Shown piece after piece: positions 53,569-59,436 of a stretch of 64,000 bases of DNA. Below the pieces are notes generated by a model. That model saw nothing but the letters and a program-made list of their open reading frames with translations. It had not been told where the DNA came from and did not search any database. The first letter of the stretch is position 1. Each line of letters opens with the position of its first letter. The stretch covers positions 1 to 64,000 of the forward strand of contig NZ_VOBR01000014.1 of NCBI RefSeq assembly GCF_007845675.1, in the 5' to 3' direction. A program made the position numbers and the translations under genes. Source of the DNA: Lentzea tibetensis. GTDB taxonomy: Bacteria > Actinomycetota > Actinomycetes > Mycobacteriales > Pseudonocardiaceae.

Positions 53569-54240
53569 TCACGAGGCCAGTGGGTCCACGTAGAACCCGA
53601 GCACCTTCCTGATCTGCCGGTTCAACCCGTGTCTGTCGTGCACGTCGAGGTCGGGTGTGGCTTCCACCAGCGCCGCGGTGAGCTTCTCCGACCAGTGCAC
53701 GTCGTCCACGCCCCGCACGAGCTCGACGATCTCCTCGAGGATGCCCCTCGCCGACCTGACCTCGTCGACACGGAAGTCGTTGCGCTGCAACCACCAGAGG
53801 ACGGCGGTGGTCAGGTCGGCGAACACCGTCTCGCGCAGGTGCGCGATCTCAGCCATCTCAGCGGTCCGCGACCGGTGACGAGCGACGGCCTCCGCCGCCG
53901 CAGGTGACAACGCAACCTCCACCGCACTGGCCGACACCCACATCGACGTCCGCTCGACGCGCAGCTGCTTGCCGAGTTCGGCGGCCAGCCGGTCCCGCAC
54001 CACGCGCTCGTCCGGCGGCGCGACGGCCGCGAGCTCGACGGCGCGCTGGTACATCGCGTCGACTGCCAGCGCACGCGGTTCAGGGTGCCGGGTCTCCGTC
54101 CGTTCCGCCCACCAGGTGACCAGCCAGGCCGCGTCGAACTGCACCCCTGGCACCGAGCTGGCGACGTGCCCGCGCCACAGTTGCTGGTCGGTGTCACCGA
54201 GAGGTCCGGATTCCACGCTGTGCCCACGTCGCCGGAACAT
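53569..54240 (-). CDS. WWLQRN-domain protein, short paralogue of the 58358-59209 product
   Basis: 223 aa, no signal peptide or membrane segment. The last about 95 residues align clearly with the C-terminus of the first gene of this operon: EIAHLRETVFADLTTAVLWW then LQRN (149-154) here, EIRYLRDEVLTDVGTATIWW then LQRN there, and a common HWxExL and LxxxLGxY further on. The middle also aligns weakly (RHPEPRALAVDAMYQRA versus RHHAPRSAAINSIVQRA), so it is a paralogue trimmed at the N-terminus. ATG 54240 overlaps the preceding stop as TGATG. Last gene of the six-gene unit; function unknown, possibly an adaptor or effector partner. Confidence 0.75.
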   Translation of the reverse strand: MFRRRGHSVESGPLGDTDQQLWRGHVASSVPGVQFDAAWLVTWWAERTETRHPEPRALAVDAMYQRAVELAAVAPPDERVVRDRLAAELGKQLRVERTSMWVSASAVEVALSPAAAEAVARHRSRTAEMAEIAHLRETVFADLTTAVLWWLQRNDFRVDEVRSARGILEEIVELVRGVDDVHWSEKLTAALVEATPDLDVHDRHGLNRQIRKVLGFYVDPLAS

Positions 54241-56072
54241 CACGCGACTCCTGCCGGGTGTTGCTGGTCGATCAGGGCCAGCAACCGTTCGTGCACCGAC
54301 CCGCGCTCGTCGGGGTCTTCGCGCAGCCAGCGGAACGACGCCATGTCGATCAGGTCGAGCAGGGCGCGATCACCGCGAGCGGCTCGGACCAGCGAGTCCA
54401 ACCCGGCGCCGTTCACGAGCGCGAGCGTCAACCGCTCCCGCACGACCCGGTCGACCTCGACGCGGTCCCGCCCGTTCAGCAGCTCGTACCAGGCGTTGCC
54501 GAGCAGCTCGCCGGTCAGCTCCGGTCCGCCGCGCTCGGTCAACCTCTGCAACAACCCGGCCGCCATCAGCCACTGCTCGCGAGTGCCGTCGCGCAACCAC
54601 GTGACCACTCGGTTGAGCACGGCGGGGCGACCGGTGGCCAGGCCCAGCATCGCGTCGACGGCCCTCGCGACCACGTCCGGGTTGCCGTGGCTCGCGACGT
54701 GCCCCAGCCTCGTCAGCGCCATCTCCGGGTAGGCACGCCCGAAGTCGCCCGCGCACACGGTGATCACGGCCCTCCCGAGCAGCGGCGAGAGCTGCGGATC
54801 CTTGGCCCAGCTGTACAGCTTCCTGCGCACCTGCACAGCGATCCTGTCGTCGGCTGCCGCACCGCTGAGCAGCGCGACCGCGAGCGACTCGTCGTGGTGG
54901 ACCCACTTTGCCACGGCGTTGAGGAGCAGTGCCGCGTTGCCGTTCTCAGCGCACAGGGCCAACACCCGACCGGCCAGCTTGCCCTGCTCGGACGCGTCGA
55001 GCTGCACGGTGCCGGGTATCGCCGTGATCCACTTCTCCAGGGGGTCGCGCAGTTCGAAGAAGCCCTGCCACACGTGATGCAGCACGGAGGTGTCGTAGTC
55101 GCGCTTGGTGAACGAGACCCTGCCTCCGCTGAGCGTGGCCGACTTCAGCTCGACCACCCGGCCGGAGAACCCTTCGCCGGCCAGGGGGTTCAGGGATTCC
55201 GGTGCGTAGTCCACGACCTTCAACAGGCTTCTCTCGGCGTCGTGCACGACCTCGTTCCTCGCGCCGTTCAGCAAGGCGATCGCCAGCGTCAGGCCGCGCC
55301 TGCGTGGCGGCGCCTTGTCGAACCTCTCGGCGAGGTCCTCGACGTAGTGCTCGAACACCGACATCGCTTCGGCGAGCCACGTCGACAGCGGCAACTCCGG
55401 TGACTGCGCACGGAAGTCGCGCAGGAGCTGGGCGAACCGCACCGCGTCCGCCGGTCGTGCGTCGGGTGCCGTCTCCACCCACCTGCACAGGATCTCCGGC
55501 AGGTGCTCCTGCATCTCGCCGCGCAGGTGCGCTTCGAGCACGTCGTGGACGATCGGCGCGTCCAGCCTCTTGACGAGGTGCCAGTACTCGTGGCGAAAAT
55601 CGCTGCTCTCGTTGCCGGACAACAGGAGGACGATGCGCCCGCCCTCACCCGTCACGGCGGCCCTGAAGCCCTCGAACCGCCTCTCGACGTGTCCGAGTCG
55701 TTCGGCGGCCCGGAAGTCCACCAGCACCAGTGCTTCCGGTTCGACGCGACGCAACCCGAGCTCGGTGTCCTCGTCGACGGGGATGTGCTCGATCGGCCGT
55801 TCACGGCCCAGGTCGAGCTCCCTCAGCAGGCAGATGCCCGCGGTGCGCAGGCCGTCGCCAGAGCACTCCAGCATCACCACCGACTCGCGGCGCAGGGTGT
55901 CGAGCGCGGCCTGGAAACCGACCGGCGGGGCGAACCGCTCGCGCACGGCCCTGACCTGCGCGGTCGTGATCTCATCCCTGATGAGCACCTGCTTGGCGAG
56001 CTGGTCGCCGTACAACGTGAAAGCATCGCGTCCGGCAACGGTGTTGCCGTGTCCCTCGACGTGCTGCGTCAT
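54240..56072 (-). CDS. STAND/AAA-like protein with degenerate P-loop and helical repeats
   Basis: 610 aa. N-terminus QHVEGHGNTVAGRD repeats the tail motif of the preceding cyclase-like protein. Residues 52-160 look like a P-loop NTPase core (FQAALDTLRRESVVMLECSG; Walker-B-like ALVLVDF at 114-120). The Walker A reads SGDGLRTAG, with Arg for the usual Lys and without GxxGxGK, so ATP hydrolysis is doubtful. Residues about 200-600 are all-alpha, HEAT/ARM-like repeats. Such NTPase-repeat proteins are signalling hubs in bacterial conflict systems. ATG 56072 overlaps the cyclase stop as ATGA. Confidence 0.7.
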   Translation of the reverse strand: MTQHVEGHGNTVAGRDAFTLYGDQLAKQVLIRDEITTAQVRAVRERFAPPVGFQAALDTLRRESVVMLECSGDGLRTAGICLLRELDLGRERPIEHIPVDEDTELGLRRVEPEALVLVDFRAAERLGHVERRFEGFRAAVTGEGGRIVLLLSGNESSDFRHEYWHLVKRLDAPIVHDVLEAHLRGEMQEHLPEILCRWVETAPDARPADAVRFAQLLRDFRAQSPELPLSTWLAEAMSVFEHYVEDLAERFDKAPPRRRGLTLAIALLNGARNEVVHDAERSLLKVVDYAPESLNPLAGEGFSGRVVELKSATLSGGRVSFTKRDYDTSVLHHVWQGFFELRDPLEKWITAIPGTVQLDASEQGKLAGRVLALCAENGNAALLLNAVAKWVHHDESLAVALLSGAAADDRIAVQVRRKLYSWAKDPQLSPLLGRAVITVCAGDFGRAYPEMALTRLGHVASHGNPDVVARAVDAMLGLATGRPAVLNRVVTWLRDGTREQWLMAAGLLQRLTERGGPELTGELLGNAWYELLNGRDRVEVDRVVRERLTLALVNGAGLDSLVRAARGDRALLDLIDMASFRWLREDPDERGSVHERLLALIDQQHPAGVA

Positions 56073-56131
56073 CGCCCGCTCCCGTGGATGTCACGCCCTG
56101 ACACGGTGTTGTTGTTGCCCTGGACGTGCTG
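56022..56131 (-). repeat. Imperfect 45-bp direct repeat straddling a gene junction
   Basis: Copies at 56087-56131 (end of the cyclase-like gene) and 56022-56066 (start of the NTPase-like gene) match at 31 of 45 bases. They encode QHVQGNNNTVSGRDI and QHVEGHGNTVAGRDA. One protein carries it as a C-terminal tail, the other as an N-terminal head, as if the motif were a paired interaction module. Confidence 0.8.
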
Positions 56132-56932
56132 CCTGACCGAGTTGTCGGTCTGGTGCACGTTGCCGACGCGACCTGCTTGGATGACCATCCCGCTCGCCGT
56201 ACCCGAGAACTCGTTGTGCGTGTTGTAGTGCTTCGGCTCGCCGACCGCGGCGGCCGCCTCCTCCGCCCGCTCCACCTGCTGCTGCCCGAATCCCTTCTCC
56301 AGCAACCGGTCCGACGGCTTGGGCACGTGGAGGAACGCCTCGCCGCGGTACGACTTGACGCTGACGGACGTCCGCACGTACTCGGTCGCCGGCTTCGGTG
56401 CGTACCCGGCGGCGATCACGTCGCGGTGCACGCGGTCCGAGAGGATCGCCGCGACGAACGTGACGTCGGGGTCCGACTCGTCCAGCAGCCGGCGCACCTC
56501 GTCCGCGTCGACCAGCCGGTGTGCTTCGACGCGGCTGTCGCCGGTTCCGTCGCCGTCGCCCTCCGCCTCCGCGAGAGGTCCAACGGTGATCGCGACCCTC
56601 ATGCGCATCCGTGCGGAGCGGCTGACCGACCGCAGCACCTGGTCGCGGTACTCGAGTTCCCGCTGCAGGCTGTCGAGGAAGGGGCCGACCAGGAACGGCA
56701 GGACCTCGGGTGCGAAGCCGACCGCGTACCCGTCGCCGGTGCTGTCCGGGAACCGCCGTGCCGCCCAGATCTCGGGCCGGCCCGCCTGGCCGAACGCGCG
56801 TTCCAGCACCACCGGGATGGTCTCGGTGAGCTGCTGCTGCTCGGCGCCTGGGTGACGGCTGTAGTCCTTCATGTCCACGACCACGACCGCGCGGTAGGGC
56901 GGCAGATCGCGCACGGTCGCTGGCTGAGTCAT
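56069..56932 (-). CDS. Class III nucleotidyl-cyclase-like protein with RHIM/amyloid-like tail
   Basis: 287 aa. Residues about 12-190 resemble class III cyclases: metal Asp in VVVVDMKDYS, second metal Asp in DSTGDGYAVGF, LPFLVGPFLDSLQREL, RMRVAITVGPL and HRLVDADEVRRLL, whose Arg fits the transition-state Arg. The purine-specifying Lys before GD is Asp here, as might suit another base or an inactive enzyme. After about residue 225 comes a tail with NEFSGTASGMVIQAGRVGNV; the VIQAG core and SG spacing resemble bacterial amyloid/RHIM signalling motifs. ATG 56932 is preferred over an upstream GTG. Next to a CRP-type gene. Confidence 0.72.
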   Translation of the reverse strand: MTQPATVRDLPPYRAVVVVDMKDYSRHPGAEQQQLTETIPVVLERAFGQAGRPEIWAARRFPDSTGDGYAVGFAPEVLPFLVGPFLDSLQRELEYRDQVLRSVSRSARMRMRVAITVGPLAEAEGDGDGTGDSRVEAHRLVDADEVRRLLDESDPDVTFVAAILSDRVHRDVIAAGYAPKPATEYVRTSVSVKSYRGEAFLHVPKPSDRLLEKGFGQQQVERAEEAAAAVGEPKHYNTHNEFSGTASGMVIQAGRVGNVHQTDNSVRQHVQGNNNTVSGRDIHGSGR

Positions 56933-56987
56933 GCCTTGCACAATGGCAGCGCGGCGGCGAGCGAGGTGCGCACGAGGTAACACCTCC

Positions 56988-57614
56988 TCAGCTGGCGAGC
57001 CGGCGGAGCCCTTCCACGTCGGCGACCCGGATCGGGTTGGTGTCGCTGAGCAGCCCGCGTTCCCGCAGCTCCCCCACGGCCTGCACGACGACGCGCCGCG
57101 ACAGCTCGAACGACCGCGCGAGCAACGCCTGGGACATCGGGATCAGGTGGGGGTCGGGGTGCTGCGGATCGGCGAGCTCGACGAGCCGCACGAACAGGTC
57201 GGCCGTGCGCCACAGGGGCCGTTCCGACCTGGTCGCCGCGAACGCGAGCGACTGCCGGAACTTGGCGAGGACGTACTCGTTCAGCACGTTGCCGACGTGG
57301 TGCCGGTCGAGCAGCCGCTTGAACGGCGCGGCGTGGATCTTGTACGCGACGCAGGGCTCGAGCGCGGTGACCGTCGCCGAGCGCGCCCGGCCGTCCTGCG
57401 CGGCCATCTCACCCAGCAGGTCGCCCGGACCGCGCAACGCGATCAGCCGGGCGGAGCTCAGCACGGCCACCCGCCCGGTCTGCAGCGCCAGCAGGAACGT
57501 GCCCGGCGCGCCTTCGTACAGCAGCTTCTCGTTGACCTTGAAGTCCGCGCGCTCGGCACTCCGCAGCAGGTCGTGCCAGACCACGACCGGGACCAGGGCG
57601 CGAAACCCGCTCAT
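56988..57614 (-). CDS. CRP/FNR-family cyclic-nucleotide-binding regulator
   Basis: 208 aa. Cyclic-nucleotide-binding domain with phosphate cassette GDLLGEMAAQDGRARSATV (Glu and Arg-Ser conserved, so ligand binding is plausible), a dimerisation helix, and a C-terminal winged helix (PMSQALLARSFELSRRVVVQAVGEL). ATG 57614 overlaps the FkbM stop by one base (TGATG). Being directly before a cyclase-like gene, it is the obvious candidate receptor for that enzyme's product, working as a transcription factor. This is inference. Confidence 0.85.
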   Translation of the reverse strand: MSGFRALVPVVVWHDLLRSAERADFKVNEKLLYEGAPGTFLLALQTGRVAVLSSARLIALRGPGDLLGEMAAQDGRARSATVTALEPCVAYKIHAAPFKRLLDRHHVGNVLNEYVLAKFRQSLAFAATRSERPLWRTADLFVRLVELADPQHPDPHLIPMSQALLARSFELSRRVVVQAVGELRERGLLSDTNPIRVADVEGLRRLAS

Positions 57615-58354
57615 CAAGCTCGGAACAGGTAGTTCCTGACGTGGTCGTTGACGCGCACCGCGGGCCGCCACTCGTTGGCGTGCCACACGCTCATCCGGTA
57701 GCCCCGGTCGACGAGCCAGTCCGCGACGTCCTGCGCCCGGTAGCCGAACCGCTCGACGTGCCGTTCCTCGATCTCCAGCAGGATGGCTGGCCGGAACCGT
57801 TCGATGGTCTCCTCGCCGCCCTGCAGCACCTTCAGCTCGGCGCCTTCCACGTCGGCCTTGACGAAGTCGAGCCGCGTGATGCCGTTCTTCTTGACGAACC
57901 CGTCGAGCGTGTCGGTGCGGACGAACACCTCGAGGTGGTCGTCGAACTCGGCGTTGGACCCGAGCCCGCTGGCGCCCGCGGTGAGGAAGCTGCGTCCCGT
58001 CACCGGGCTGCCGTGGCGCACCGGGACGCTCATGACGTCCCGCCCGTCCTCGATCGTGCCGAGCGCGACCGAGTGCCGCTTGATGTTCCGCCCCTCACGC
58101 GGCCGCAGGATCATGCTCAGCGTGGGGTGCGCGAACACCAGTGGCTCGATGCTGTGCACAGTCCCTTGTGGACCGACGAGCTGTGAGAGCGTGACCGTGT
58201 ACAGCCCGAGGGCCGCGCCGACGTCGATGCAGACGTCACCGGGCTTGACGACTCTCTCCAGCCCGATGAGCTCGGGTTCTGCGAACGGCGTGAGCCTGGC
58301 GAGCACGCGCAGGCCGGCGGCGACGGCGGCGCCACGGAGTTCGGTCATCAGCAC
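57614..58354 (-). CDS. FkbM-family SAM-dependent methyltransferase
   Basis: 246 aa. SAM site IDVGAALGLYTVTL, FkbM motifs DFVKADVEGAE (metal/SAM region) and LEIEERHVERFGY near the end. FkbM enzymes O-methylate sugars, lipids or polyketides. Start GTG 58354 or ATG 58348. Coupled on both sides to operon genes, so it belongs to the system, although methylation has no obvious role in it. Its substrate could be a small signal molecule or a lipid. Confidence 0.88.
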   Translation of the reverse strand: MLMTELRGAAVAAGLRVLARLTPFAEPELIGLERVVKPGDVCIDVGAALGLYTVTLSQLVGPQGTVHSIEPLVFAHPTLSMILRPREGRNIKRHSVALGTIEDGRDVMSVPVRHGSPVTGRSFLTAGASGLGSNAEFDDHLEVFVRTDTLDGFVKKNGITRLDFVKADVEGAELKVLQGGEETIERFRPAILLEIEERHVERFGYRAQDVADWLVDRGYRMSVWHANEWRPAVRVNDHVRNYLFRA

Positions 58355-58357
58355 AGC

Positions 58358-59209
58358 CTAGACGTGCGGCGAGTTCCCGTTCATGTGCTGCTCCGCCGCG
58401 GGCAGTCCGACCTGGTCGGCGAACTCGGCGGCCACCGAGCTCCCGCCGTACACGCCGAGCGCCTTGGCGAGGTGCTGCCGCAGATCCCGCCGATGCCCGT
58501 CGTCCAACCGCGGCAACGCCCGCTCGAAGCTGCTGACCAGGCTCTCCGCCCAGTGCGGATCGCTGGTGTGCCGCGCGATGCGCACGAGCTCCTGCAACTC
58601 ACCCGCGAGCTGAACGGCCCGCTCGACCTCGTACCCGTTGCGCTGCAACCACCAGATCGTGGCGGTCCCGACGTCCGTCAGCACCTCGTCGCGCAGATAC
58701 CGGATCTCCGCCCGCTCGAGCTCCCGCTCGGCGTGCCGCACAGTGGAGTTCCTGAGCAGCTCGATGTGCTTGCGCGCCATCTCCAGGTCGCCCTCGTCGA
58801 CCGAGATCTTGACCTGCTCGGCCCGCGCCCACACGTGCGTCTCCGGAACCTGTTGCTCCTCAGCCAGTTCAGCCCCGAGCTGGTGCTGCAACGGCGCGTG
58901 ATGCACGAGCATCGCCTGCGAACTGATCGCCCGCGCCCGCTGCACGATGCTGTTGATCGCCGCACTGCGCGGCGCGTGATGACGCAGCCCGGTGTGCAGA
59001 TCGAGCCGGTAGACGACCGTGAACTTCACCCGGAAGTCCAGCCCGTACACCGCACTCGGCAACGGCGTCTCGAACTCCTGCTGGTGCGAAGACTGCGGCA
59101 CCGCGTACGTGAAATCCTCGACGCGCCCCAGGTCACGACGCCGACGCCACCACGCGCCGAACGCCCCGAGTGGGCCGGGTCGGGTATCAGGCCAAGGTCT
59201 GCCGCTCAC
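58358..59209 (-). CDS. SPFH-like protein with C-terminal WWLQRN domain
   Basis: 283 aa, no membrane segment found. Residues about 45-135 have a beta-rich pattern like SPFH/band-7 domains (LPSAVYGLDFRVKFTVVYRL, THVWARAEQVKISVD), followed by a long charged helix (140-175) and the conserved C-terminal block with WWLQRN at 186-191. Paralogous to the last gene of the operon. GTG 59209 behind AAGGAG. First gene of the six-gene leftward unit. SPFH assignment is by pattern only. Confidence 0.7.
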   Translation of the reverse strand: MSGRPWPDTRPGPLGAFGAWWRRRRDLGRVEDFTYAVPQSSHQQEFETPLPSAVYGLDFRVKFTVVYRLDLHTGLRHHAPRSAAINSIVQRARAISSQAMLVHHAPLQHQLGAELAEEQQVPETHVWARAEQVKISVDEGDLEMARKHIELLRNSTVRHAERELERAEIRYLRDEVLTDVGTATIWWLQRNGYEVERAVQLAGELQELVRIARHTSDPHWAESLVSSFERALPRLDDGHRRDLRQHLAKALGVYGGSSVAAEFADQVGLPAAEQHMNGNSPHV

Positions 59210-59360: not shown

Positions 59361-59436
59361 GCCCTAGTAGCTCAGGGGATAGAGCATCGGTTTCCTAAAC
59401 CGTGTGTCGCAGGTTCGAATCCTGCCTGGGGCACCA
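59361..59436 (+). tRNA. tRNA-Arg (anticodon CCT)
   Basis: 73 nt plus encoded CCA (59434-59436). Acceptor GCCCTAG/CTGGGGC with one T-G wobble; anticodon loop TTCCTAA gives CCT, reading AGG. T arm GCAGG-TTCGAAT-CCTGC. TAGGAT at 59345-59350 is a likely -10. Encoded CCA and rare-codon Arg tRNAs are frequent integration targets, but no integrase or att repeat was noticed. Confidence 0.95.

Follow-up and report, generated by a model that had tools for sequence, protein, structure and literature searches.

The window, a stretch of 64,000 nucleotides (nt) from Lentzea tibetensis (contig NZ_VOBR01000014.1, positions 1 to 64,000, assembly GCF_007845675.1), carries six leftward genes of which four recur as a cassette in related genomes: a CRP-type regulator (CRP), a protein with the fold of a class III nucleotidyl cyclase (cyc), a degenerate nSTAND3-like protein of receptor type (NTP) and a member of the 'WWLQRN' family (W). 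The best explanation of this cassette, to which we give roughly even credence, is a cyclic-nucleotide switch triggered by a STAND-type protein (signal transduction ATPase with numerous domains), where the N-terminal head of NTP would act on the C-terminal tail of the cyclase through a motif that the two have in common, and where CRP would read the nucleotide at the promoter of the cyclase gene itself. The source genome is 9.36 Mb in size and the nearest named kin of the locus are Lentzea species.

A four-gene cassette

Searching 40 relative loci with the six proteins by tblastn returned CRP, cyc, NTP and W in a fixed order, and a scan of the named genomes with the cyclase alignment A4 led to 45 loci in Pseudonocardiaceae, Kribbella, Frankia, Nocardiopsis, Streptomyces and two unclassified bins. 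There are 45 cyc genes called in 44 of these loci, with none in L152. CRP lies immediately upstream of 43 of them and NTP immediately downstream of 38, and at 33 the four genes CRP-cyc-NTP-W follow one another without interruption on the same strand, with median gaps of 101, -4 and -4 nt. A recurrence of this order at 33 of the 45 goes beyond chance. Matches to cyc (E of 1e-10 or better) occur in 32 of 150 relatives, the window's own genome included; those in G030, G053, G076 and G095 reach no more than 1e-11 to 1e-13. For the phylum, a scan that scored only five candidates per genome gave cyc-like matches in 2 of 396 genomes, again counting the own genome.

An earlier note on this DNA had described a coupled six-gene operon, made together, and had raised the question whether the set is conserved as a block and patchy between strains. 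The six reading frames lie where it placed them, in the order W1, FkbM, CRP, cyc, NTP and W2, and the short gaps and overlaps are real, the exact junctions being TGATG for FkbM/CRP (57616-57612), ATGA for cyc/NTP (56072-56069) and GTGATG for NTP/W2 (54243-54238), with a W1/FkbM spacing of 3 nt from a GTG start or 9 nt from an ATG start and a CRP/cyc gap of 55 nt. Conservation as a block holds for CRP-cyc-NTP-W, and so does patchiness, with cyc matched in 4 of 25 Lentzea genomes: that of the window, G006 and G010, both with NTP and W2 (the NTP of G010 in two pieces), and G024, which has neither. The six-gene unit had to be given up, because W1 and FkbM are kept where Lentzea genomes have no cassette. 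Of the 21 cyc-free Lentzea genomes 20 were surveyed (G019, whose contig extends less than 2 kb on that side, was left out): all 20 have W1 and the same tRNA-Arg, and 18 have FkbM. Among the cassette loci FkbM is confined to Lentzea and one Umezawaea. That the genes are made together agrees with the coupled junctions, subject to the promoter pattern that many relatives carry in the CRP-cyc gap.

A flanking penicillin acylase gene is present in 25 of 25 Lentzea genomes searched. With W1, FkbM and the acylase gene kept and cyc variable, the cassette is therefore gained or lost in the interval from FkbM to the acylase gene. Recent insertion as the sole reading of this site was dropped: one Umezawaea carries the full set at the same site and the cyc tree groups Lentzea with that Umezawaea and one Goodfellowiella copy, so that ancestral presence with repeated loss fits equally. 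Genera stay mostly together in the tree, though some are split, so that a good part of the patchiness may be due to loss. In G006 the flanks are 73-78% identical, versus 54% for CRP, 60% for cyc, 42% for NTP and 35% for W2; the same four values are given for L070, where W1 is at 73% and FkbM at 77%.

In another genus, two loci (L098 and L107, in G042 and G079) have NTP and W, with no match to cyc or CRP, next to a member of the penicillin acylase gene cluster; the site is therefore variable beyond Lentzea.

Pairing of effector tails with receptor heads

The last 100 residues of the effector were compared with the first 75 residues of NTP. In the window the cyclase tail motif QHVQGNNNTVSGRD is paired with the NTP head motif QHVEGHGNTVAGRD, and the true partner ranks first of 39. 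Across 28 loci, including seven in which the effector is a TIR protein, pairs from one locus align best (66.7 versus 33.3, standard deviation 2.3, 0/20000), the own partner being top-ranked in 14. With 38 named pairs plus the window the values are 74.5 versus 33.9 (standard deviation 2.05, 0/20000), with the own partner first in 22 of 39, and for ten cassettes below 55% cyc identity they are 68.6 versus 33.0 (standard deviation 5.3, 0/20000), with the own partner first in eight. Controls with the cyclase body or the NTP body are flat. The link between cyclase and NTP that the earlier note saw in these motifs is thus upheld as a pairing of sequences. Tails and heads are enriched in Asn (3.7-fold and 3.0-fold, respectively), Gly and His and depleted in Leu, and in L087, which has no NTP, the cyclase has no tail. 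Further upstream in the window's cyclase tail lies the stretch NEFSGTASGMVIQAGRVGNVH, which by eye we take to be RHIM/BASS3-like.

Some other proteins bear on these motifs. In L080 the tail of the cyclase has IQVG, and one gene away is an NB-ARC/TPR protein whose head has VIQAG. Two 'MCRAGGRRC' proteins, in L006 (G000:C97:186557-189736, at 1270-2259) and L008 (G000:C88:117962-121105, at 925-2082), carry arrays of both types of cyc-tail motif, VVQAG-type and GNGNTVSG-type; the former adjoins a Prim-Pol gene, a neighbourhood typical of mobile elements. Of 61 genomes two have matches to them: that of the window and the cyc-bearing G024, where the match is limited to residues 1-158. It is conceivable that they serve as decoy or trigger of the system. 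The window's own genome also has a P-loop protein (GPAGVGKT) in L007 (G000:C1:506063-509155, at 1-1554), whose called sequence, cut at the locus end, starts VVQAGNIGEVHFH, close to the first cyc tail stretch; it is a possible second partner.

The cyclase

The catalytic domain of cyc has the b-a-a-b-b-a-b fold of class III nucleotidyl cyclases which, together with the conserved key residues, bears out its earlier description as cyclase-like. Both metal-binding Asp residues, D19 and D66 (the latter in the b2-b3 turn), are invariant in the 45 sequences of alignment A5, as is R138, the transition-state Arg of the NxxxR motif; D66 and R138 are conserved to at least 90% in alignment A1 (32 sequences). 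Numbering follows a reference without the initial Met (56069-56929). None of 32 cyc members gave a Pfam cyclase match and the class was settled by fold. The DUF2652 cyclases were also considered, set beside cyc by their description in the part of PMC4886424 used here. Pycsar structures are absent among the 50 matches listed, with the possible exception of Pseudomonas aeruginosa CyaB (3r5g), and no conclusion is drawn from this. From the fold and key residues we infer that cyc would make a cyclic mononucleotide.

CRP and the cyclase promoter

CRP carries a cyclic nucleoside monophosphate (cNMP)-binding domain and HTH_Crp_2, which confirms the pairing of a cNMP-binding regulator with a class III cyclase fold, and has no transmembrane (TM) or TIR killing domain. 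The phosphate-binding cassette GE...R[ST]A is kept in the window CRP and most relatives, several Streptomyces rows having R-L-A. The proposal in the earlier note that CRP takes the place of a killing effector is not sustained, since relatives have a conserved operator at the cassette's own cyc promoter.

This operator (operator B) is a dyad, TGTCC-N6-GGACA, which 23 of 44 CRP-cyc gaps have without mismatch and 28 have as GTCC-N6-GGAC, with at most 5 in mononucleotide shuffles (eight per set). At up to one mismatch it accompanies 42 of 59 distinct CRPs, namely 32 of 33 with the recognition helix RSTV and 10 of 26 with other helices, these CRPs being related sequences, so that the Fisher test on them lacks independence; L111, whose recognition helix differs, shows TGTGCAGTTGTGCACA in this position. 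At up to two mismatches the dyad is found in 45 of 54 gaps, 42 of which have an xANNNT box exactly 21 nt further on, a box seen at other offsets in 1.0%. With a transcription start about 7 nt past the box, the dyad centre falls near -41.5, the class II CRP position. A second site, GTGA-N6-TCAC (operator A), lies about 23 bp upstream of the dyad and is intact in L108-L112, and upstream of CRP no like dyad was found, the best candidate there being CGCG-N7, in 11 regions versus 5-8 in shuffles. Each of 20 genomes has between 0 and 6 copies of the exact form TGTCCGNNNNCGGACA: it is in the cassette of G037, G045, G057, G068, G085 and G089, being the sole genomic copy in the last four, the sole copy of G084 lies outside the cassette, G070 has none, and Lentzea genomes have 1-6, none at the cassette. 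A conserved operator at the cyc promoter whose exact form is so rare points to CRP acting in local feedback on the cassette.

NTP, W and the exchange of the cyclase for a TIR protein

With E up to 0.1 allowed, 16 of 25 NTPs have a match to nSTAND3, the best at 9.7e-7, and that of the window has none. The earlier description of NTP as P-loop-degenerate is apt: a GxxGxGR form of the P-loop occurs in 22 of 39 NTPs, L143 retains the Lys (GPNGAGKVT), and the C-terminal part, which has a weak match to a designed repeat in the PDB (E 0.0014), perhaps consists of helical repeats. An N-terminal hydrophobic stretch (mean hydropathy of at least 1.9 over 19 residues) is present in 29 of 42 W relatives and missing from the Lentzea copies. 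Among 29 W members there is no consistent Pfam match and none to an SPFH or cNMP-binding family.

In seven loci (L099, L100, L101, L102, L104, L105 and L106) a TIR-type protein with a similar tail replaces cyc beside NTP, PF13676 matching at 1.4e-10 to 3.8e-9 in the three that were scanned. None of the seven has a CRP match and five have W; in L099, L100, L101 and L105 a gene of one cluster precedes the TIR gene, with HTH_31 in L101. The tail/head pairing is also seen in the TIR version, in L106.

Mechanism and alternatives

How might these parts work together? In the proposed switch NTP, with W, whose N-terminus is of membrane type in many relatives, would sense a trigger. The Asn/Gly-rich head of NTP would then template the cyclase tail and gather cyclases into active dimers; here the motif pairing is observed, and assembly in an amyloid state is proposed by analogy with pairs of NLRs (nucleotide-binding leucine-rich repeat proteins) and effectors that signal in this way. 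The cyclase would produce a cyclic mononucleotide, and nucleotide-loaded CRP may bind the palindrome near -41.5 and raise transcription of cyc-NTP-W in an autocatalytic loop, as the pocket, the operator, its -10 spacing and the link of helix to operator in relatives would allow. Candidate outputs are a nucleotide signal or depletion, or an action of W at the membrane, and the TIR version suggests, by analogy, growth arrest or cell death. The window copy has kept the cyclase, the CRP pocket and the motif pair and lacks the canonical operator. A more specific form of the idea, that prion-like templating of the cyclase tail by a STAND/NLR-like protein is joined with class II feedback by CRP to give an all-or-none immune switch in which the enzyme can be swapped for TIR, is offered tentatively, as possible rather than probable.

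Several observations weigh against the proposed switch. The window lacks operator A and its operator B dyad is weak. The own partner is not top-ranked in 17 of 39 pairs, tail and head match little in L111, L114, L119, L123 and L138, tails occur without an adjacent NTP in L075, L079, L086 and L092, and L075 and L087 have CRP-cyc without NTP. In alignment A1 some sequences deviate at D66 or R138, and a second cyc copy in L074 has neither. The Asn of NxxxR is Val in the window and Val or Ile in most of 32 relatives (L075 and L097 retain it), so that turnover may be slow; the table in the part of PMC4886424 used here includes predicted class III members with the Arg alone, the Asn being usual and not universal. 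GxxxxGK[ST] occurs in the first 200 residues of none of the 39 NTPs, and with canonical Walker A absent a nucleotide-driven STAND cycle is therefore doubtful. The cyc tree, by mostly following genera, gives no support to frequent transfer. Finally, most codons at the identical tail/head residues are common to both in L150 (27/30), L117 (26/32) and L113 (22/28), and recent copying therefore plays a part there.

A house-keeping regulator of stress or development, in which cyclase and CRP form a local cNMP circuit, NTP and W serve as scaffold and invaders have no part, would account for the fixed geometry of a CRP-type promoter and for the mostly vertical tree within genera. It is nonetheless rather unlikely given the few Lentzea genomes with a cyc match, the greater divergence of cassette proteins than of flanks in L070, and the TIR swap. 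An abortive infection of Pycsar type, in which the cyclase signal acts on W as membrane effector and CRP only sets expression, is improbable: a cyclase fold and a cNMP-binding protein do share one locus, many W relatives have the hydrophobic stretch and CRP matches PycTIR in PADLOC (8.5e-15), but this match spans residues 15-135 only, the cNMP-binding part, cyc has no PADLOC match at E up to 1, the Pfam matches of 29 W proteins include no cNMP-binding family, and W, standing with NTP and TIR in loci free of cyclase, is therefore not tied to cNMP. That the tail/head likeness is a by-product of local coding duplication over the overlapping cyc/NTP junction, with no protein-protein role, is very improbable, for although codons at identical residues agree at 0.68 versus 0.57 if independent (32 of 39 pairs, score at least 45), codon choice is near-independent in the window (5/10), L136 (5/14) and L130 (9/18), and the pairing persists across the ten diverged cassettes and in the TIR version.

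Should the switch be real, STAND receptors, amyloid-type signalling motifs and cNMP/CRP control, usually separate subjects of study, would be joined in a single unit of four genes whose operator is defined. The tail/head pairs, being specific to their loci, would form a natural library for tests of amyloid signalling specificity and the operator an immediate reporter of activation.

Comparison with known systems

The cassette is regarded here as a new combination, in which STAND/NLR motif-pair signalling has an effector of cyclase fold and a CRP loop of its own; among the literature searched, judged by title and the start of the abstract, there is no description of it. As presented in the parts of PMC7889193, PMC8086366 and PMC12261475 drawn on, the NLR/effector pairs of bacterial amyloid signalling sequences (BASS) likewise have adjacent or overlapping genes and, in PMC7889193, which also mentions TIR effectors, a short motif common to the effector C-terminus and the STAND/NLR N-terminus. 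A locus-specific motif of this kind is found here in the effector tail and the adjacent NTP head, and the VIQAG stretch of the cyc tail resembles RHIM/BASS3. Unlike the BASS effectors mentioned in those parts, the effector has a nucleotidyl cyclase fold, and NTP is a degenerate nSTAND3-like protein.

Pycsar, in the portion of PMC11224242 used (which also supplies some roles of the CRP pocket residues), has a class III-type cyclase and a cNMP-binding protein, whereas the cassette has a CRP transcription factor as receptor, contains a STAND-like protein and W in addition, and gives no PADLOC PycC match for cyc. The NTP-dependent conflict systems of multicellular prokaryotes (Kaur 2020, PMC7159879) contain cNMP cyclases, TIR, STAND NTPases, Band-7 and CRP-like cNMP factors, but the portion consulted describes no CRP-cyclase-nSTAND3-W cassette, tail/head pairing of this kind or operator. 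Avs5, in the excerpt of PMC12931631 used, combines an nSTAND3 NTPase, whose Walker A Gly and Lys are required, with C-terminal repeats; its Sir2 effector is fused, unlike the separate effector gene here, and the canonical Walker A is missing from the cassette.

Features of the locus

Pfam matches were obtained for FkbM (1.1e-24), cNMP_binding (8.6e-14) and HTH_Crp_2 (2.6e-9). W1, cyc, NTP and W2 did not reach the Pfam cut-off and gave no NCBIfam or PADLOC match at E up to 1; the PADLOC matches are confined to the cNMP-binding part of CRP and a weak one to FkbM. Gene starts come from our own caller and some are probably late (W1 and W2 of the window), so that heads and W N-termini may be shortened.

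Table 1. Coordinates of the cassette, its motifs and its neighbours in the window
Feature	Position	Strand	Remarks
W2	53569..54243	-	core cassette protein, 'WWLQRN' family; no TM-like stretch in window copy
NTP	54240..56072	-	nSTAND3-like receptor-type protein, P-loop degenerate
NTP N-terminal head motif QHVEGHGNTVAGRD	56025..56066	-	
cyc	56069..56932	-	class III nucleotidyl cyclase fold and C-terminal tail; ATG at 56932; D19, D66, R138, K192 conserved
cyc tail motif QHVQGNNNTVSGRD	56090..56131	-	matches NTP head
cyc tail stretch NEFSGTASGMVIQAGRVGNVH	56153..56215	-	without counterpart in window NTP head
Predicted -10 box CATTGT	56940..56945	-	7 nt upstream of cyc ATG; chosen by analogy
Degenerate operator-B position TGTTACCTCGTGCGCA	56967..56982	-	palindrome in many relatives
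CRP	56988..57614	-	cNMP-binding domain and Crp-type HTH
FkbM methyltransferase	57614..58354	-	genus backbone, outside cassette
W1	58358..59209	-	W2 paralogue; genus backbone beside tRNA-Arg
tRNA-Arg (cct)	59361..59436	+	flanks variable site

ARAGORN also places a tRNA-Met at 57997-58072 (+), inside the FkbM gene on the opposite strand, which is probably a false call.

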